Origin: SAR202 cluster bacterium AC-647-P02_OGT_505m | Lineage (GTDB): Bacteria > Chloroflexota > Dehalococcoidia > Lucifugimonadales > UBA826 | Direction: 5' to 3' | Assembly: GCA_009391195.1 (NCBI GenBank) | Contig: VEXB01000004.1 | Span: 1-64,000, forward strand | DNA length: 64,000 nucleotides | Shown here: one piece after another, positions 191-9,204 of the stretch | Numbering within the stretch: position 1 is the stretch's first letter | How the letters are laid out: each line of letters opens with the position of its first letter | The notes under the pieces: generated by a model | Database searches by the model: none | What the model saw: only the letters and a program-made list of their open reading frames with translations | What the model was told of the DNA's origin: nothing | Translations under genes and position numbers: made by a program

Positions 191-1246
191 ATGATAAGTG
201 GCGTTTTAGAACGATACAAAGATTTTCTCCCAGTTAATTCGAATACTCCTCTTATTTCGATTGGTGAAGGAGACACTCCACTCGTAAAGTCCTCTCATCT
301 TGGAAACAAAATAGGTTGTAGATCTCTCTTCTTCAAACTAGAGGGTTGTAATCCAACAGGATCATTCAAAGATAGAGGGATGGTCGTTGCGGTAGCGAAA
401 GCTATCGAAAAGGGATTTGACAGTATTGCTTGTGCTTCCACAGGTAACACAAGTGCCTCGGCGGCTGCCTATGGGGCACATTGCGGACTCAGAACCACTT
501 TGATAGTTCCAAAAGGCAATGTAGCTAGAGGCAAATTAGCCCAGGCTGTGGCATATGGTGCACATATAGCGATGGTAGACGGTAGCTTTGACGATGCTCT
601 GGAGATAGTGCAGGAGTTATGTGACAAGCATTCAATTGAATTGGTAAATTCAATTAATCCTAACCGTATAGAAGGACAGAAGACAGCAGCTTTTGAAATA
701 ATTGACGACCTGGGTGACGCACCAGATGCTCTATTCATTCCTGTCGGTAACGCTGGAAATATCACAGCTTATTGGAAGGGGTTCAAAGAGTTCTTTGACA
801 TAGGCAGAAGCAGCATTCTTCCAGTTTTAAACGGATATCAGGCTTTAGGCGCGGCTCCTATAGTAAATGGGGCCCCTGTTGCAGATCCTAAAACGGTTGC
901 TTCGGCTATTAGGATAGGTAATCCCGCCAGTTGGCAAAGCGCTGTCCGAGCACGCGACGAATCAAACGGTGTTATAGCGGCTGTTTCTGATGAGGAAATA
1001 CTGTCAGCATATAGATTGGTTGCCGAATATGAAGGAATATTTTGTGAGCCTGCATCAGCGGCCTCTATTGCAGGACTTCTCAAGCAGGTGGAGGATGGAG
1101 CAGACTACTCTGAAAAGATCATTGTCTGTGTTTTAACAGGAAATGGACTCAAGGATCCAGACGTTGCGAATGAAATTGTTCCAGCATCATTAGGAGAGTA
1201 TAAGGCTGAACTCGGGTCTGTCGAGCAGGCTTTAACCAAATCATGA
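191..1246 (+). CDS. thrC: Threonine synthase
   Basis: This 351-residue PLP enzyme should convert O-phosphohomoserine to threonine, the last step of threonine synthesis, in the cytoplasm. The lysine-containing PLP motif GCNPTGSFKDRG sits near residues 55-66, followed by the serine/threonine-rich ASTGNTSASAAAYG loop and, further on, a phosphate-binding VGNAGN segment. The length matches the short thrC class rather than the 430-residue E. coli type. The ATG is preceded by a GAGGA stretch at an unusually long distance, so the start is only moderately secure. The stop overlaps the folE start by 4 nt, so it is the first gene of a thrC-folE-acyltransferase operon. I see no leader peptide or riboswitch in the 190 nt before it. 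Confidence 0.93.
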   Translation: MISGVLERYKDFLPVNSNTPLISIGEGDTPLVKSSHLGNKIGCRSLFFKLEGCNPTGSFKDRGMVVAVAKAIEKGFDSIACASTGNTSASAAAYGAHCGLRTTLIVPKGNVARGKLAQAVAYGAHIAMVDGSFDDALEIVQELCDKHSIELVNSINPNRIEGQKTAAFEIIDDLGDAPDALFIPVGNAGNITAYWKGFKEFFDIGRSSILPVLNGYQALGAAPIVNGAPVADPKTVASAIRIGNPASWQSAVRARDESNGVIAAVSDEEILSAYRLVAEYEGIFCEPASAASIAGLLKQVEDGADYSEKIIVCVLTGNGLKDPDVANEIVPASLGEYKAELGSVEQALTKS

Positions 1247-1845
1247 AGTGTTCTGGATTCCAGCAGGATCCGGCAAATAACTTACCTTTGCAGTCGATTA
1301 TATCGGCAGTAAAAAATATGTTGATCGCTGTAGGAGAGAACCCTGAAAGAGAGGGCTTAAAAAATACCCCTAAGAGAGTTGGAGAATTTTATTTAGATTT
1401 TTTTTCTGGATTAAATGAGGATCCCATATTTGAGCTTAAGACTGATTTTGATGAGGACCACTACGAACCAGTTATAATCACAAACATCGAATTCTTCTCT
1501 ATTTGTGAACATCATTTGCTTCCTTTCGTCGGTTATGCTCATTTGGGCTACATACCCAATGGCAAGGTTGTAGGGGTAAGTAAGCTTGTCAGGGTTCTTG
1601 ATATTTTTTCCAGAAGACCTCAGATTCAAGAGAGGCTTGCTGACCAAGTGGTCGACACTATACATAAAGAGCTTGGGTCGAATGCGACTTATCTATTTCT
1701 CTCAGCTGAGCATATGTGTATGACCTTGAGAGGGGTAAGAAAATCGGGCAGCCATATTGTCACTTCAACTGAAAGAGGAGATAAGGTTGGTTTAGAGTTA
1801 ATCAAATCTGGGATTTCAATAGACGCGTTGAAAGGATCCGAATGA
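1243..1845 (+). CDS. folE: GTP cyclohydrolase I
   Basis: The product should convert GTP to 7,8-dihydroneopterin triphosphate, the entry step of tetrahydrofolate synthesis. The zinc and catalytic signatures are complete: SICEHHLLPFVGYAHLGYIP at about residues 85-105 and SAEHMCMTLRGV at about residues 150-162 supply the Cys, His and Cys ligands. At 200 residues the protein is of usual length. Both ends overlap the neighbours by 4 nt (ATGA), which points to translational coupling with thrC and the following acyltransferase gene. Two later folate genes, folP and folK, lie about 18 kb away on the same strand, so the folate pathway is scattered. Confidence 0.96.
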   Translation: MKCSGFQQDPANNLPLQSIISAVKNMLIAVGENPEREGLKNTPKRVGEFYLDFFSGLNEDPIFELKTDFDEDHYEPVIITNIEFFSICEHHLLPFVGYAHLGYIPNGKVVGVSKLVRVLDIFSRRPQIQERLADQVVDTIHKELGSNATYLFLSAEHMCMTLRGVRKSGSHIVTSTERGDKVGLELIKSGISIDALKGSE

Positions 1846-2819
1846 CTGAATTTTTTGGACAGGAACATCAACAAACTGTAAAGACATGGGAAACTATCCT
1901 CACGAAGTGTTCGATGGACACGATTTTTATGACACCTGTGTGGCAATCCACATGGTGGAAAAGATTTTCCCCAGGTGGAGATTTGTTTATTGAGGTAGTT
2001 AGTGATGGTGACTTGGATCTGGGGGTTATACCACTGCAGATCACCCAAGGAGTAGCAAGCTTTATTGGTGATTCCGATTTATACGATTATATGGATTTTC
2101 CGGTTGTTTCAGGTAAGGAAGATTTATTTTTTTCGAAAGCCCTAGAAAAGATTAATACTTTGGATTGGCACACTCTTAAACTGGAATCAATTTTTGAAGA
2201 TTCTCCAACTCTAGCATTTATACCTGACGTCGCTAGGAAACTAGGTATGGAAATTGAAATTAATGAGTCTGATAAAACTCCGCTTGTTTCATTGCCCGTC
2301 ACTTGGGAAGATTACCTACTCCAGCTACGTAAAAAAGATAGGCATGAGTTACGCCGGAAGTTTCGTCGACTCAACGCGAACGGTGATAATAATCAAGTCG
2401 AAGTCAGTGTGAATGCTGAAAATGTTGACTCCGTTATGGAAGAGTTTTTTGATCTTATGGCTCTGAGTGGGGAGAATAAAAGTATTTTTCTTGACGCAGG
2501 CAATAGGGGGTTTTTCAAGGACATAGCCACTGCTCTCTCCCTTCAAGGCCAATTTAGATTATTTTTTTTGGAAATAGAGGGAACTAAAGTGGCGACATGT
2601 ATATGCTTCGATTATGGTGATAAATTCCTTCTTTACAACAGTGGATATGACCCCGAGTTTTCGACTTTAAGTGTAGGCTTACTGAATAAAGCAAACACAA
2701 TTGCGACTGCTATAGAACTCTCTAAGAAGCAGTATAATTTCCTTAAAGGTACGGAAAGATATAAGTATCATCTGGGTGCTCAAGAGACCTCTGTATTTGA
2801 CATAAATATTGGTAAGTGA
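1842..2819 (+). CDS. BioF2/CelD-type GNAT acyltransferase-like protein
   Basis: This 325-residue protein resembles the CelD/BioF2 (GNAT-like, FemAB-related) family. The middle carries a basic RHELRRKFRRL stretch (about residues 168-178), and the last third has the typical YNSGYDPEF...GLLNKANTIATAIE run with a YNFLKGTERYKYHLG ending, which is characteristic of these acyl or aminoacyl transferases. The donor and acceptor cannot be read from sequence. The start codon overlaps the folE stop (ATGA), and a MshA-like glycosyltransferase follows after about 100 nt, so an envelope- or glycoconjugate-related role is possible. No signal peptide is visible. Confidence 0.72.
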   Translation: MTEFFGQEHQQTVKTWETILTKCSMDTIFMTPVWQSTWWKRFSPGGDLFIEVVSDGDLDLGVIPLQITQGVASFIGDSDLYDYMDFPVVSGKEDLFFSKALEKINTLDWHTLKLESIFEDSPTLAFIPDVARKLGMEIEINESDKTPLVSLPVTWEDYLLQLRKKDRHELRRKFRRLNANGDNNQVEVSVNAENVDSVMEEFFDLMALSGENKSIFLDAGNRGFFKDIATALSLQGQFRLFFLEIEGTKVATCICFDYGDKFLLYNSGYDPEFSTLSVGLLNKANTIATAIELSKKQYNFLKGTERYKYHLGAQETSVFDINIGK

Positions 2820-2924: not shown

Positions 2925-4142
2925 ATGCGTTTAGCTCTAATTAGCTTTCATGGTTGCCCGGTAGCCCGTTTGGGTGAGAAAGATACAGGTGGCATGAATG
3001 TTTACGTTTTGAATCTTGCTAATGAATTAGGCAACTTGGGTCATCAGGTAGACGTTTTTACGAGATACCATGATGCTAAGGATCCCCAGATTGTAGAGTT
3101 GGGATCAAACGTAAGAGTGATCCATTTGAGTGGAGGACCATTATCAGAGACAAAGGAAGACTTGTCTCTCCATACTTCCAGTTTTGCAGCCGATTTGCAC
3201 GAGTTCATATCTAGGGAATCAATTAACTATGATCTTGTTCACAGTCATTACTGGTTGTCAGGGAAAATAGCTTCTGAAATTTCTCGAATTTGCAGGATTC
3301 CACACGTATCTACTTTTCACACTCTAGCCAAAACAAAGTTAAGGGCGCGGGCTGGTGAGAAAGAGACTTTCTACAGGGCTAATGTAGAGACAGAAATAAT
3401 GCGGTCTGCTAACACCGTATTAGTACTGACAGATAAAGAAAGGGAAGACATTAGAGAACTTTACAATGTTCCCTCAGAAAGGATTACAGTTATACCCGCG
3501 GGAGTTGATACAGGTCGATTTAATGCTGAAGACAAGGTAACTTCTCGCAAACGTCTTCACATTCCGGACAAAGAAACCATTCTTTTTGTAGGGCGTATTG
3601 AACCTATCAAAGGCCTCGATATACTTATTGATGCTTTAAAGACCCTATCAAATTCCAGAGACCTGCAACTAATAATTGTTGGAGGCAACCTGTCAGGGGA
3701 CAAGGAGCTAATTGCCTTACGAAAACAGGCCGAACATCTTGGAATATCAGAGATGATCGATTTTAGAGGTTCTGTCGAACAATCAGAACTTAAATACTAT
3801 TACTCAGCTGCAGATGTGTTTGTGCTCCCGTCTCATTATGAGAGCTTTGGGTTGGTAGCATTGGAAGCAATGGCTTGTGGGACCCCAGTCGTAGCTTCTC
3901 GTGTAGGGGGTATCCCATCTTTTTTGGATGATGGTGATACAGGTTACTTGATCCCTTGGAGATGCCCGGAACCATTCGCAGACAAGATAGAAATTCTTCT
4001 TGAAAATCCAGATCTAAGGGCATATATGGGAAAATCAGCTGGACTGAAGGCTTATCAGATGAACTGGTCTGGTATTGCGAGTAGAATGGCCACTTTATAT
4101 GGTACTGTCATTGAAGAATATGACTTAAGACAAGCCGTCTGA
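2925..4142 (+). CDS. GT4 glycosyltransferase, MshA-like
   Basis: This 405-residue GT-B retaining glycosyltransferase has a sugar-nucleotide binding C-half with [14 protein letters not shown] near residue 223 and the E-x7-E motif ESFGLVALE near residue 305. Its N-half has the [11 protein letters not shown] segment and VHSHYWLSG, both close to the consensus I recall for mycothiol D-inositol-3-phosphate glycosyltransferase MshA and sucrose-phosphate synthases. The [11 protein letters not shown] region after HSHYWLSG also follows the MshA pattern. A GGATCC element just before the ATG serves as a short Shine-Dalgarno site. MshD-like and MshB-like genes lie next to it. Substrate identity is an inference; a general UDP-sugar glycosyltransferase is the alternative. 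Confidence 0.82.
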
Positions 4143-4163
4143 TTTGGTTCCTTGCAATTTAAG

Positions 4164-5117
4164 CTAACTGTTATGTGATGTGAGTTCATACCACTCGGTT
4201 TCAGATACCAATTGGAAACCAAGGCTGCTATAGAGTTTCCTAGCTGGAATATTTTCAGAATCAACCTCTAGTTCGATCGCGCCAACATTTTTTCCTATCA
4301 GGTGGTACATTCCTGCGGTCACAACTGCTCTGCCAAGTCTCTGTCCTCTGAACTCTGGGGCCACTCCAGTCATTGAAACCCAACCAGTTGACTCAGACCC
4401 ATTGGAGGCAAATAGAGTCCAGTTGTATCCAGCCAATTTGTTATTTTGTCTAATTACCAAAATACCTTCTTCCCCACTTCTTTCCATGGAGATTCTCTTT
4501 GAAATTTCTTCTTCAGTATTTGGGGAAAATCCCCAATGTTTTCCAAAGGCTTCGTTTTGGAGCTTGGTAAATTCTGATAATTCGATTTTTGGGTCCAGGG
4601 GAGCGATAGAGAATTCTTCTGGCAGACTATATTCAGGGAAGTTTAATTTGTCAGGAGTATCGCATCTCAAATTCATGTATTCTTTGACTTTGACCCATCC
4701 ATGACGATCGAGAGTGCTGCCCCATTCAGGATCAGATTTAGCAATTTGAACATGCATAAATTTTAGATTTCGCGTCTCTTGGTATATGCGCGCAAGTTGT
4801 TCAAAGTTGGTAGTGATTGCTCTTCGCTTAGCGTGTGGTTTTATTGTTTGTATCGCAACAATTCTGTCGATGGACGGTTCACAGATGAAATGCATGAATC
4901 CATTGATGGATTTATCATCTGTTTCATCCATTGAGATAAAACAATCGTTAGTCGGGTTGCCCTTTGGCATAGAGTGCCAGTCTCTGAATAGGGATTCACT
5001 GACTTCCTTCTCCGTTCCCATTGATTCGGAAGCTTCATTCAAATATTTGACAACTTTAGCTGTGTCATCCCAGTTAAACTGTCTTATTGACTTAGCGTGG
5101 TACAAATATTGCCTCAT
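4164..5117 (-). CDS. Double-GNAT acetyltransferase, MshD-like
   Basis: The 317-residue product has the length and layout of two-domain GNAT proteins. The C-terminal domain is intact, with the acetyl-CoA pyrophosphate loop VAPEFRGQRLGRAVV near residues 250-265 and the closing ELEVDSENIPARKLYSSLGF motif. The N-terminal GNAT domain looks degenerate, as in mycothiol synthase MshD, which joins acetyl groups to Cys-GlcN-Ins. It lies convergently between an MshA-like glycosyltransferase and an MshB-like deacetylase gene, which is the main reason to suspect a thiol role. ATG at 5117 was preferred to the upstream GTG at 5123; neither has a strong ribosome site. Confidence 0.75.
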   Translation of the reverse strand: MRQYLYHAKSIRQFNWDDTAKVVKYLNEASESMGTEKEVSESLFRDWHSMPKGNPTNDCFISMDETDDKSINGFMHFICEPSIDRIVAIQTIKPHAKRRAITTNFEQLARIYQETRNLKFMHVQIAKSDPEWGSTLDRHGWVKVKEYMNLRCDTPDKLNFPEYSLPEEFSIAPLDPKIELSEFTKLQNEAFGKHWGFSPNTEEEISKRISMERSGEEGILVIRQNNKLAGYNWTLFASNGSESTGWVSMTGVAPEFRGQRLGRAVVTAGMYHLIGKNVGAIELEVDSENIPARKLYSSLGFQLVSETEWYELTSHNS

Positions 5118-5499
5118 AAACACTTTTCGAATTGGAAAAACATAAATATATCAAAGTTAATTTATTGATGTTCCGATTCGCTATATTTGAAGAATTAACC
5201 TTCTCGCATTTGTTAGTAAATTCAGTTTTATTATTTATAAAAATCAAATCTCTTAAAGACCTTACTGTGATTCATACGGCACGATGATATCCCAATATTT
5301 AATTTCCAGCCAAAATGAAGCTATTTGTTACAGGCTGTACTAAGCTTGACTATGTGGATAACTATATTGAAACTCTTCAGCCTGGAGAGAATAATTCAGT
5401 TATATTTGTTTTAACATTTCATGGGAAAAACACAGAAAAATTTTGTTACAACATAGACAAGTTTAAGACCTCCCTTATTCGGGAGTAGAGGTACCGAAA
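5118..5499. other. Intergenic region between divergent MshD-like and PIG-L genes
   Basis: This AT-rich stretch of about 380 nt separates divergent genes and so should hold promoters for both. No consensus promoter or operator stands out. It contains one uninterrupted 57-codon ATG reading frame (listed separately) and a short CTCCC-N6-GGGAG hairpin a few nucleotides before the PIG-L start. Confidence 0.4.
5315..5488 (+). CDS. Possible 57-residue small protein
   Basis: An ATG frame of 57 codons, below the ORF-track cut-off, runs without interruption and ends 11 nt before the PIG-L deacetylase start. The predicted peptide begins MKLFVTGCTKLDYVD and contains two cysteines. I do not recognise it. 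There is no convincing Shine-Dalgarno site before its ATG, and in such AT-rich DNA a chance frame of this length is quite possible, so this is listed only as a candidate upstream or leader ORF. Confidence 0.22.
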   Translation: MKLFVTGCTKLDYVDNYIETLQPGENNSVIFVLTFHGKNTEKFCYNIDKFKTSLIRE

Positions 5500-6219
5500 A
5501 TGGAAAATAACAACTCTTTCCCGGTCCCAGGAAGAGCCTTAGTAATAACCCCACATCCCGATGATTCTGAATTAGGCTGTGGAGGCACGGTAGCGAAATG
5601 GATAAAACAAGGTACTGAAGTTGTTTATGTGCTTTGTACTAACGGAGACAAGGGCTCTTCTGATCCTGATATGACTTCTCATAAACTGGCGGAGTTAAGG
5701 AAAATAGAGCAACAGAAAGCGGCAGAAATTTTGGGTGTCGCGGAAGTGGTAAGGCTTGATTATGAAGATGGCTCACTAGAAGATACACCGTTATTCAGAG
5801 GTCAAATAGTGGAAGCGATTAGAAGATTTAGACCTGATGTAGCACTTTTCACAGACCCTTTAAGAACGGAATTTTATCTACACAGGGATCATAGAATTGC
5901 AGGAACTGTTACCCTCGATGCTCTCTTCCCATATGCCCGAGATCGGCTTCATTATCCCGATCACGAATCCGAAGGGTTACTACCACATAAAACCCCTGAT
6001 GCCTTAATGTGGGGGAGCGAGTCTCCCGATACCTTCATCAATATAACTGGGTCGATTGATAAGAAAATAGAAGCACTGGTTGCCCATAAGACACAGATTC
6101 CGAGCTGTGAAGAAAGTGATGAATTGGCCAACTTAGTTAAGGTCACCGCTGCTAGGGTTGGTAGCCGGTGTGATTATAAATATGCGGAAGGCTTTCGGAG
6201 AATCTCATTTAGCCTATGA
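5500..6219 (+). CDS. PIG-L/LmbE-family N-acetylglucosaminyl deacetylase (MshB/BshB-like)
   Basis: This 239-residue zinc hydrolase carries the family signature PHPDDSELGCGG near residues 18-29, giving the His-Asp-Asp metal and base residues, and HRDHR near residue 129, giving the third zinc ligand. Relatives remove N-acetyl groups from GlcNAc conjugates, including GlcNAc-inositol (MshB) and GlcNAc-malate (BshB), as well as glycolipids and antibiotics. The gene overlaps the PHP phosphatase start by 4 nt (ATGA), so the two are probably co-translated. With the MshA-like and MshD-like genes next door, a low-molecular-weight thiol pathway is a reasonable inference, not a demonstration. Confidence 0.85.
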   Translation: MENNNSFPVPGRALVITPHPDDSELGCGGTVAKWIKQGTEVVYVLCTNGDKGSSDPDMTSHKLAELRKIEQQKAAEILGVAEVVRLDYEDGSLEDTPLFRGQIVEAIRRFRPDVALFTDPLRTEFYLHRDHRIAGTVTLDALFPYARDRLHYPDHESEGLLPHKTPDALMWGSESPDTFINITGSIDKKIEALVAHKTQIPSCEESDELANLVKVTAARVGSRCDYKYAEGFRRISFSL

Positions 6220-6977
6220 ACTTTCCCTTATTTGACCTGCATAATCATCTTCTTCCACTAATTGATGATGGTCCTAATAGTATGGATGAGACAATTAAGA
6301 TTGTTGAATTGTCTGAAATGCAAGGTGTCCGAACCATAATAGCTACTCCGCACAAAAAGGACGTAAATGAGCTGCATTCAATTGAATTTGTCAGAGGCCT
6401 TCTCAAAAAAGTAAATCAAATTTGTAAATCGAGAGGTTATTCGATTAGTTTGAAATTGGGAATGGAGAACCATTTGGATTCAAGGTTGCTAGATGATATC
6501 AAAGCTGGCAAGGCTTTACCGATGGGAGATAGTAAATATATTTTGCTGGAGATGCCCTATGATAGAAAATCAAATTTAGTTGAGGATGTTTTGGGTCAAA
6601 TCCAGAAAATCGGATTGATTCCTATAATAGCTCATCCTGAAAGAATGGAATTGTTCCAGTACGACCCAGCTCTATTGTTTAATCTGGTAGACGAAGGGAT
6701 GTTAACCCAGATAACTGCGAGCAGCGTATATGGAAAATTTGGCGACGAGGTTCAAAGATTTACGAAGCAGATTTTGCGTTGTAATTTGGGGCATATACTC
6801 GCCTCGGACGCACATATGTCTACAGGTCCCAGGCCTCCGGATCTATTGAAAGGGTATTTTGAGGTTTCTAAAATAGTTGGGAGAGATGCTGCAAAGGATA
6901 TGGTAAGTACACTTCCAGGGGCTATATTAGAGAATAACGCGCTGGATATAAAACCACCAATATTGATAAAAGATTGA
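6216..6977 (+). CDS. PHP-domain phosphatase, CpsB/YwqE-like
   Basis: This 253-residue protein has the full polymerase-and-histidinol-phosphatase metal set: DLHNHLLPLIDDGP at residues 6-19, ATPHKK near 44, GMEN near 87, AHPER near 140 and ASDAHMSTGPRP near 194. This pattern matches the CpsB/CapC/YwqE branch, known as manganese-dependent tyrosine-protein phosphatases acting on polysaccharide-export kinases. No capsule kinase or polysaccharide genes are in the window. Instead it is translationally coupled to a sugar deacetylase, so a small phosphosugar substrate should be considered. Confidence 0.82.
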   Translation: MNFPLFDLHNHLLPLIDDGPNSMDETIKIVELSEMQGVRTIIATPHKKDVNELHSIEFVRGLLKKVNQICKSRGYSISLKLGMENHLDSRLLDDIKAGKALPMGDSKYILLEMPYDRKSNLVEDVLGQIQKIGLIPIIAHPERMELFQYDPALLFNLVDEGMLTQITASSVYGKFGDEVQRFTKQILRCNLGHILASDAHMSTGPRPPDLLKGYFEVSKIVGRDAAKDMVSTLPGAILENNALDIKPPILIKD

Positions 6978-6991
6978 TTTGCAAAAAAGCG

Positions 6992-7621
6992 CTATCTGAG
7001 ATGTCTACGAACAATATCCCAAACCTTTTCACTTATAGATTCGCTTGTTTGATTTGCATTAATTACTGTCCAAAGATTCTGGTCATTCTCAGAAATTTTT
7101 AGATATCCATCTCTAACTTTCTTGTGAAAGTCGATATTTTCTAGTTCCCACCTGTCTAAAGTACCTTTTTGTTTCCTTTGGAAAGAGTCTTCGGGATTAA
7201 TATCCAGTAGAAATGCAATGTCTGGATTAAGATCATCAGTTGCCAACATATTTACATAATCAATATGTTGGATATCTATACCTCGTCCGAATCCCTGATA
7301 TGCAAGAGTAGAGTAGGTGTATCTATCCAGGACTACGACATGATCATTGGCCAAAGCGGGAATTATTTTATTTTTGACAAGGGCTCTTCGTGAAGCCGAA
7401 AGAAGAAATAATTCTGAATAGCCGTCGAGATCACTGCTAGTCTGAAGCCATTCTCTTATTTTTTCACCGGTTTCAGTATCACCTGGCTCTCTGAGGTGGA
7501 GACAATTTATTCCTTCTCTATCGAGCTGACGTGTGAGGAGATGGGATTGCGTGCTCTTTCCGCTGCCCTCTACTCCCTCAAAAACTATAAAGAGACCTCT
7601 GTTGCCTACAGATTTAGTCAT
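6992..7621 (-). CDS. tmk: Thymidylate kinase
   Basis: The 209-residue product should phosphorylate dTMP to dTDP. It shows the P-loop FEGVEGSGKSTQ at about residues 14-25, the DRY motif in VVLDRYTYSTLAYQG near residue 95, and the LID-like RKQKGTLDRWE near residue 150. Length is typical for bacterial Tmk. The ATG overlaps the stop of the upstream SpoIIIAA-like ATPase gene by 4 nt, so it is the last gene of that minus-strand operon. It converges on the PHP phosphatase with only 14 nt between stops. Confidence 0.96.
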   Translation of the reverse strand: MTKSVGNRGLFIVFEGVEGSGKSTQSHLLTRQLDREGINCLHLREPGDTETGEKIREWLQTSSDLDGYSELFLLSASRRALVKNKIIPALANDHVVVLDRYTYSTLAYQGFGRGIDIQHIDYVNMLATDDLNPDIAFLLDINPEDSFQRKQKGTLDRWELENIDFHKKVRDGYLKISENDQNLWTVINANQTSESISEKVWDIVRRHLR

Positions 7622-9204
7622 GCTTCGGAAATTACAACTCGCCGACGAGGTTCACTTCCAACACTAGATGACTCAAGCCCAAATTGGGTGGCGACTTGAT
7701 GTTGGAGTCTACGGATGTGGGAATTCTGGGGCCTTAATTCAATATCTGATTCCCCTTTACCAACTCTGAGGGCGGCTTTCTCTGCCTCAAGGACAGCCAA
7801 GGAACGGTCCGCATCAGAGACTGATCTTCCCTCGCTTTCCCTAACTATGGCCCTAACGAATTGTTCAATCTGATTAACTGTATTTCTGCGAAGAACAAAA
7901 ACAGGTTTCCCCATCCTTTCTGCTGTTTTTAACGCTTGTGTGCCTCTTCGATGATAATTTTTTGTCGTGACAACAAGATCAGCGATTTTCATGTCCCCCA
8001 CCAGCGTTAATGGGGCATTTAGAGTTTTTATAATTTGATCTATTCTGCCTCTGTTTACCCCGTATGGGAGAACACTGGTAATTTTGACGGATTCAGAAAA
8101 GAATTTAGCCGGGGATTCCTGATGGCCATTTCCGTTGCTATTGTCAGAAGTGCTGAGAGTCTTCATATTATTCGTTTCAACCGACTTTTGGCTTACAATA
8201 GCTCCTTCTTCATTTAGGGATCTTACTTCGGATGAGATTGATTGCTTTCGAAGCATCCTATCTACAGTACTTGCGACGTCATCGTGCACATTGACTATGT
8301 CCCACCCTTGTATCTCGACGAGTATGTCAAAAGTAGGTGGTGCATTTCGCTCTAATACAGTTTTCTGCGACCGACGTCTTCGAGCCTCTATATCTCCGAG
8401 GGTGACAGTATGGATTCCTCCCACTAGGTCAGATAATGTGGGGTTCATAATAAGATTCTCTAATTGGTTCCCATGTGCTGTTGCAACAAGCTGCACTCCT
8501 CGTTCAGCAATAGTTCTCGCTGCATTCGCTTCTCTTTCCGTACCGATTTCATCGATGACTATAACTTCCGGCATGTGGTTTTCAACCGCCTCAATCATTA
8601 CGCCATGTTGTTCGGTAGGGGAGGGGACTTGCATTCGTCTTGCTCTTCCAATTGCCCTATGAGGAATATCTCCATCTCCAGCTATTTCATTGGATGTATC
8701 AACGACTATAACCCTTTTCCCAGCATCATCTGCCAAAACTCTTGCGACTTCTCTCAACATCGTGGTTTTTCCGACACCCGGTTTTCCTAGTAGGAGAACA
8801 CTTTTTCCTGATGTAACCAAATCTTCTATAATCCGGATGGTTCCATATACGGCTCTCCCCACTCTGAAGGTAATACCTACAACCTTTCCACTGCGGTTCC
8901 TTATTGCAGAAATTCGGTGAAGAGTTCGCTCTATGCCAGCTCGATTGTCTAATCCGAACATACCTACTTTAGCGACAGAGAAATCTAGATCTGATTGATC
9001 TACTTCTGCGATGTCAATGAGTTCATTGATACCAAGGAAGCGGGCTTCAGGAGGACGGCCGAGGTCGAGCACCACCTCTAGTAGCTCTTCGAGGTTCGCA
9101 TGAGCCAGAAGCTTATTTCTGATTCGGTCAGGAATAACCTCTATCAATAGCTGTAAGTCGGTATCTTTTTCCTGAGTAAATATGGGACTGTTACCTACTT
9201 CCAC
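7618..9204 (-). CDS. SpoIIIAA/Ycf45-like AAA ATPase with C-terminal R3H domain
   Basis: This 528-residue protein combines a secretion-type ATPase core, with Walker A LLLGKPGVGKTT near residue 140 and Walker B EVIVIDEIGTE near residue 215, with a C-terminal R3H single-stranded nucleic-acid binding domain (ELRPQNSHIRRLQHQVA near residue 495). A low-complexity linker around residues 325-365 joins the halves. This architecture matches cyanobacterial Ycf45 and the R3H nucleic-acid binding proteins of non-sporulating bacteria, whose job is unknown. The start is GTG at 9204. The stop overlaps tmk by 4 nt, and pdxT lies just upstream. Confidence 0.85.
   Translation of the reverse strand: MEVGNSPIFTQEKDTDLQLLIEVIPDRIRNKLLAHANLEELLEVVLDLGRPPEARFLGINELIDIAEVDQSDLDFSVAKVGMFGLDNRAGIERTLHRISAIRNRSGKVVGITFRVGRAVYGTIRIIEDLVTSGKSVLLLGKPGVGKTTMLREVARVLADDAGKRVIVVDTSNEIAGDGDIPHRAIGRARRMQVPSPTEQHGVMIEAVENHMPEVIVIDEIGTEREANAARTIAERGVQLVATAHGNQLENLIMNPTLSDLVGGIHTVTLGDIEARRRRSQKTVLERNAPPTFDILVEIQGWDIVNVHDDVASTVDRMLRKQSISSEVRSLNEEGAIVSQKSVETNNMKTLSTSDNSNGNGHQESPAKFFSESVKITSVLPYGVNRGRIDQIIKTLNAPLTLVGDMKIADLVVTTKNYHRRGTQALKTAERMGKPVFVLRRNTVNQIEQFVRAIVRESEGRSVSDADRSLAVLEAEKAALRVGKGESDIELRPQNSHIRRLQHQVATQFGLESSSVGSEPRRRVVISEA

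Follow-up and report, generated by a model that had tools for sequence, protein, structure and literature searches.

Can a member of the Chloroflexota make a mycothiol-type thiol, and if so, which enzyme would attach its cysteine? The question is raised by a gene cluster in the window, by which we mean the whole 64,000-nucleotide stretch (positions 1 to 64,000) of contig VEXB01000004.1 from SAR202 cluster bacterium AC-647-P02_OGT_505m, of the class Dehalococcoidia. The original prediction had placed side by side a glycosyltransferase (GT), a two-domain GNAT and a PIG-L deacetylase, and had read them as three enzymes of mycothiol type. We found all three open reading frames where they had been placed: an MshA-like GT4 glycosyltransferase of 405 amino acids (2925..4142, + strand), which does carry the two motifs ascribed to it, GGMNVYV and HSHYWLSG; an MshD-like tandem GNAT of 319 amino acids (4164..5123, − strand); and a PIG-L deacetylase of 239 amino acids (5500..6219, + strand; PF02585, 2e-32). 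Because it recurs across the whole order and across phyla, their arrangement is not a matter of chance, but the gene that makes the set coherent had been overlooked: just upstream, at 1842..2819 (+ strand), a fourth gene encodes a FemX-like protein of 325 amino acids (PF13480, 6e-24). Taking the four genes together, we conclude that the window probably encodes the central part of a pathway of mycothiol type, leading to a cysteine-glucosamine thiol, in which a FemX-like transferase replaces the cysteine ligase MshC.

The FemX-like protein gave a confident AlphaFold model, with a predicted local distance difference test (pLDDT) score of 94.9, and its best fold match in the PDB was FemX itself (E 1e-13, template-modeling (TM) score 0.67). 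The next matches were Sbb17 and Sba18, aminoacyl-tRNA-dependent peptide synthases whose structures have also been solved with the amino-sugar compound streptothrisamine, followed by MprF. Orf11, a Gly-tRNA-dependent enzyme of the FemX fold, likewise acts on streptothrisamine (review PMC12945691). When the sequence was compared with the PDB, no FemX-type chain matched up to an E-value of 5, and among the Pfam families FemAB_like stayed below its cut-off, with PF13480 above. The acetyl-CoA motif [RQ]xxGx[GA] occurred in only 4 of 30 FemX-like orthologues versus 26 of 30 MshD-like ones, as expected if the FemX-like protein does not use acetyl-CoA. Its orthologues share an invariant lysine, K308, in a Y-K-x-x-L-G motif, which is a candidate counterpart of the C-terminal catalytic lysine of this fold (K305 in FemXWv, K329 in DhpH-C). 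We propose from the model that the protein acts as an aminoacyl-tRNA-dependent transferase in the place of MshC.

If the FemX-like protein does the job of MshC, the two should nearly exclude each other among genomes that carry the GT, and this is the pattern we observed. MshC (TIGR03447) exceeded its cut-off in none of the 147 genomes of the window's order; the window's own genome is 55.7% complete, and the absence holds in 78 good genomes of the order. Nor did any of 201 genomes of the phylum exceed this cut-off. The search for an MshC-like gene, which the original prediction had suggested for the genome, found none in the order, but MshC-like genes do exist in other classes of the Chloroflexota. 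There, in many genomes outside the window's class, we found short CysS-like genes of about 390-420 amino acids that score 377-408 bits to MshC (two of the proteins have longer predicted N-termini), usually accompany a full-length CysS, and are exemplified by G263:C1:1022022-1023215 (L252:5523-6719) in a non-Dehalococcoidia genome. In a tree with 13 sampled sequences, these proteins and actinobacterial MshC formed one group with an ultrafast bootstrap (UFBoot) support of 100. As a side observation, actinobacterial MshC nests among the Chloroflexota sequences in this small tree.

Calling the GT at E<=1e-60 in the 201 phylum genomes yielded 141 that bear it, among which 44 had only the FemX-like gene, 82 only a second CysS-like gene, 10 both and 5 neither. 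Three of these last five hold a high-scoring MshC-like gene as their sole CysS match, and overall 139 of the 141 carry a FemX-like gene, a second CysS-like gene or a top-scoring MshC-like one. The near exclusion yielded a Fisher P of 4e-21, a value that is too small since related genomes are not independent. Upon counting by family, we obtained 26 with CysS-like genes only and 17 with FemX-like genes only, while two (f60 and f67) hold both types in separate genomes. Although MshC is lacking in the order, the pathway still has a candidate ligase there, since the FemX-fold protein would take its place.

The best curated family of the GT is MshA (TIGR03449, 344 bits; runner-up family 162 bits), its score to the BshA profile is 129 bits, and its best PDB match is Corynebacterium glutamicum MshA (273 bits), followed by sucrose-phosphate synthase (206 bits). 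A tree, proposed earlier as a check, groups it with MshA and apart from sucrose-phosphate synthases at moderate support (UFBoot 80), with FemX-linked and other Chloroflexota GTs partly interleaved; on score and tree, we rejected the reading of the GT as a sucrose-phosphate synthase. Residues K77, Y109, T133 and R151 of the window's GT match K78, Y110, T134 and R154 of MshA, and equivalents of R231, K236, E316 and E324 are present as well, completing a set that we take to serve acceptor-phosphate and donor binding. In the sucrose-phosphate synthase TeSPS, the acceptor phosphate is bound by R105 and R178 (PMC7264703), which align with K78 and R154 of MshA when a chain-numbering offset of 3 is taken into account. 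As the residues matching the phosphate binders of MshA and TeSPS are kept, the window's GT likely uses a phosphorylated acceptor.

A source of inositol phosphate is encoded elsewhere in the same genome, where the inositol-phosphate synthase Ino1 (G000:C24:15482-16561) is 55% identical to the TIGR03450 type. This actinobacterial type was found in 144 of the 147 order genomes (E<=1e-3), a minority of them with weak matches only, and those are largely covered by the PF07994 type. In two Bacillota loci, L166 and L200, a TIGR03450-type Ino1 even adjoins the module. A PF07994 search had returned none in the 15 genomes of the window's family, which would have ruled out an inositol acceptor; because the same search was also negative in the C. 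glutamicum control and the actinobacterial-type query succeeded, we rejected this absence as a false negative. More generally, PF07994 as searched misses inositol-phosphate synthases of the actinobacterial type, and absence calls that rest on it are unsafe.

The PIG-L protein, which the original prediction had assigned to the MshB type, scores highest to BshB1 (108.7 bits), then to BshB2 (68), Mca (55) and lastly MshB (48.7), and among solved structures it comes closest to archaeal diacetylchitobiose deacetylases, BshB ranking before MshB; the MshB assignment was therefore abandoned. The motifs HPDD...HRDH are invariant in 29 orthologues, consistent with the proposed deacetylation of a GlcNAc (N-acetylglucosamine) intermediate. 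We also noted a second PIG-L paralogue in the window's genome, 50% identical (G000:C3:26639-27301, − strand), and members of the family that lack the cluster PIG-L carry a PIG-L similar to this one. The GNAT kept its assignment in part, as its best curated family is indeed MshD (TIGR03448), its family profile finds MshD as the best PDB match (1.7e-25), its predicted model matches MshD at TM 0.71-0.73, and MshD Y294 is conserved in the family. Overlapping the PIG-L gene by 4 bp lies a gene for a PHP-type phosphoesterase of the CpsB/CapC family (6216..6977, + strand; 253 amino acids; PF19567, 2.8e-51), a possible glycosyl-inositol-phosphate phosphatase, which has PIG-L as its neighbor at many loci within the window's order and is rarely beside the module elsewhere.

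Across the order, the neighborhood reads thrC-folE-PF13480-GT-(MshD-like, opposite strand)-PIG-L-PHP, sometimes split into two separate blocks, with thrC, folE, pdxS and tmk as conserved housekeeping neighbors. We scanned a species-genome collection for the FemX-like family and kept 80 of 555 confirmed loci, which fall, by the phylum labels in the submitters' record titles, into Chloroflexota, Desulfobacterota-like bacteria, Bacillota and, in a single record, Poribacteria; among named records, SAR202-type Chloroflexi (L202, L176, L177) hold the closest relatives of the window's genes. Wherever a locus could be judged, the FemX-like gene nearly always adjoined the GT gene (49/52 in Chloroflexota, 15/16 in Desulfobacterota-like and 5/5 in Bacillota loci), and FemX-like, GT and PIG-L genes occurred together in 28 of 41, 9 of 11 and 3 of 3 such loci, respectively. 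The gap between the first two has a median of 21.5 bp, and the genes overlap in L121 and L130. In complete Dehalococcoidia genomes of 1.4-1.9 Mb, the core forms a tight operon of FemX-like, GT and PIG-L genes. Elsewhere an MshD-like gene often lies within the set on the opposite strand, and this four-gene order (FemX-like +, GT +, MshD-like −, PIG-L +) occurs in 17 loci, including L200 of Bacillota and L162 of Desulfobacteraceae. A glyoxalase-II-like hydrolase of the metallo-beta-lactamase fold adjoins PIG-L in 19 loci from three phyla (e.g., L200:5941-6708, − strand); together with Ino1, this recurrent extra neighbor fits a thiol pathway, as would be expected of a thiol-ester hydrolase. Separately, four loci (L147, L149, L153 and L151) pair a FemX-like with an MshD-like gene, and three of the four have PIG-L as well, but no GT lies nearby; in these, the GT may be encoded elsewhere or be dispensable.

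We infer the catalytic activities, with cysteine as the amino acid and a thiol as the product, in the following order. Ino1 would supply myo-inositol phosphate, to which the MshA-like GT would add GlcNAc from UDP-GlcNAc, yielding GlcNAc-inositol phosphate. The phosphate would then be removed, possibly by the PHP protein, a candidate mainly in the window's order, and deacetylation by PIG-L would free the sugar amine. The FemX-like protein would next attach to this amine an amino acid, most likely cysteine, delivered by aminoacyl-tRNA, a step that in Actinobacteria has its counterpart in the CysS-derived ligase MshC, and in those lineages that have an MshD-like gene, the GNAT would finally acetylate the amino acid. 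This would yield a cysteinyl-glucosaminyl-inositol thiol, either mycothiol itself or a near relative. The original prediction's idea that a cysteine-sugar thiol, similar to but distinct from mycothiol, could be made outside Actinobacteria thus has better support than before, from the GT tree, Ino1, the GNAT profile and the FemX-like ligase candidate, although the thiol product is still something we infer. With about even confidence, we extend the scheme to a broader picture in which Dehalococcoidia, Desulfobacterota-like and Bacillota anaerobes make a mycothiol-class thiol through a FemX-fold enzyme and Cys-tRNA, while other Chloroflexota use a true MshC.

Several observations weigh against this assignment. 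Neither the GT nor the GNAT reaches the curated cut-off of its family (344 versus 462.5 bits for MshA, TIGR03449; 80 versus 163 bits for MshD, TIGR03448), and the Chloroflexota MshC-like proteins also fall under that of TIGR03447. The equivalent of MshA K78 is present in only 20 of 26 GT relatives, the other residues being nearly invariant. For the FemX-like protein, the proposed role depends on the fold and the genomic context, since its sequence matches no solved FemX, and PIG-L is nearer to BshB1 and diacetylchitobiose deacetylase than to MshB; the cluster PIG-L is missing in two relatives, G034 and G141, which do have other PIG-L paralogues. Many modules have no MshD-like gene, among them the ones in complete Dehalococcoidia genomes, and since the catalytic base of MshD, E234, is replaced in the GNAT family, the last step may involve another acceptor or mechanism. 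Finally, families are not independent samples either, and Fisher P-values overstate significance.

The main rival is that the product of these enzymes is no thiol but an aminoacylated glucosaminyl-inositol or glucosaminyl-lipid, a constituent of the membrane or surface to which the FemX-like protein would transfer Gly, Ala, Ser or Lys. We consider this possible, yet clearly the less probable outcome. The fold relatives of the FemX-like protein include the lipid-aminoacylating MprF enzymes, the amino acids that known FemX-type enzymes transfer are mostly Ala, Gly and Leu, the GT scores 82 bits to the profile of GlcNAc-phosphatidylglycerol synthase, and the frequent lack of the MshD-like gene would be compatible with such a product. 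PF13480 and CpsB/CapC families occur in polysaccharide clusters too, which we count in its favor. What speaks for the thiol instead is that, on the same GT background, the FemX-like gene is nearly exclusive with MshC-like genes, for which cysteine is the donor, that the GT carries MshA-like residues, and that our analysis of the loci's neighbors found no recurrent flippase, polymerase or exporter genes beside the module.

It is unlikely that the genes are neighbors by history only, that is, that a GT of MshA or sucrose-phosphate synthase type, a chitobiose-type deacetylase and generic GNATs serve unrelated sugar metabolism and that the annotations over-reach. The missed curated cut-offs and the diacetylchitobiose deacetylase as best solved match of PIG-L would suit such a view, and so would the housekeeping genes thrC, folE, pdxS and tmk, which are conserved neighbors in the order too. 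Yet in loci of Dehalococcoidales, Desulfobacterota-like bacteria and Bacillota, the FemX-GT-PIG-L set persists with none of these housekeeping genes alongside, and the close spacing, down to overlap, of its first two genes argues in the same direction. Very improbable, and rejected here, is that the missing ligase is a second CysS-like gene, one fused to a glycosyltransferase domain, and that the FemX-like protein has another role. Although such a fusion occurs in 67 of 147 order genomes, the window's genus (G000, G101) lacks it, it shows no association with the GT (63/134 GT-bearing versus 4/13 GT-lacking genomes, hand count), and it retains CysS at full length and does not branch within the MshC group. 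The fusion itself consists of a full-length CysS paralogue with a C-terminal GT2 domain, encoded besides a normal CysS (67/147 likewise by hand count; e.g., L051:3472-5655, − strand, and L053:4033-6627, + strand).

If the thiol reading is true, mycothiol-type thiols are spread over several phyla with their ligase replaced repeatedly, a tRNA-dependent route leads to a redox buffer, and a widespread uncharacterized branch of PF13480 gains a function. The cluster may explain which protective thiol these bacteria make, and with a candidate for each step, present also in complete Dehalococcoidia genomes, it makes the identity of that thiol directly testable. Of the further genes in this part of the window, folE (GTP cyclohydrolase I; 1243..1845, + strand) shares 4 bp with the FemX-like gene; it is a conserved neighbor in the order and probably has no functional link to the module. 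At 7618-9204 (− strand), the window encodes a SpoIIIAA-like ATPase whose C-terminus carries an R3H domain; across the order, its position next to tmk, pdxT and pdxS is conserved.

In a previous survey, mshA-D were found in Actinobacteria only (PMC6282198), and an unidentified thiol is reported for Chloroflexus aurantiacus (PMC6336425); our literature search, which did not cover subscription journals, returned no description of the module or of MshC in Chloroflexota. The bacillithiol pathway (BshA, BshB, BshC) resembles the cluster in combining a GT4 enzyme, a PIG-L protein (nearest to BshB1 among curated thiol deacetylases) and a cysteine-adding step, but we rejected it for the lack of BshC (TIGR03998) in all 147 order genomes, a search in which the positive controls Bacillus, Thermus and Deinobacterium were matched. 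The GT also differs from that pathway in being MshA-like (344 bits) rather than BshA-like. With FemX/FemABX and the streptothricin-type Gly-tRNA-dependent transferases (Orf11, Sbb17, Sba18), the window's protein shares the predicted double-GNAT fold, while differing in its lack of detectable sequence similarity to the solved members and in its fixed partnership with an MshA-like GT and PIG-L. The Chloroflexota that carry MshC-like short CysS genes have the same MshA-like GT family, and the products of these genes group with actinobacterial MshC; unlike the window's system, they nearly exclude the FemX-like gene, and such genes were not found in the window's order. The closest counterpart is the actinobacterial mycothiol pathway (Ino1, MshA, an unidentified phosphatase, MshB, MshC, MshD), from which the window differs by its phylum, by a FemX-fold protein where the order has no MshC, by a deacetylase of BshB1/Dac type, by a GT and a GNAT under the curated MshA and MshD thresholds, and by the unconserved E234. 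It shares with that pathway Ino1, an MshA-like GT with both donor and acceptor residues, a PIG-L protein and an MshD-like tandem GNAT, so that the same order of reactions is possible. Overall, good comparative evidence points to a ligase-swapped variant of the mycothiol-type pathway as what is new in this locus.

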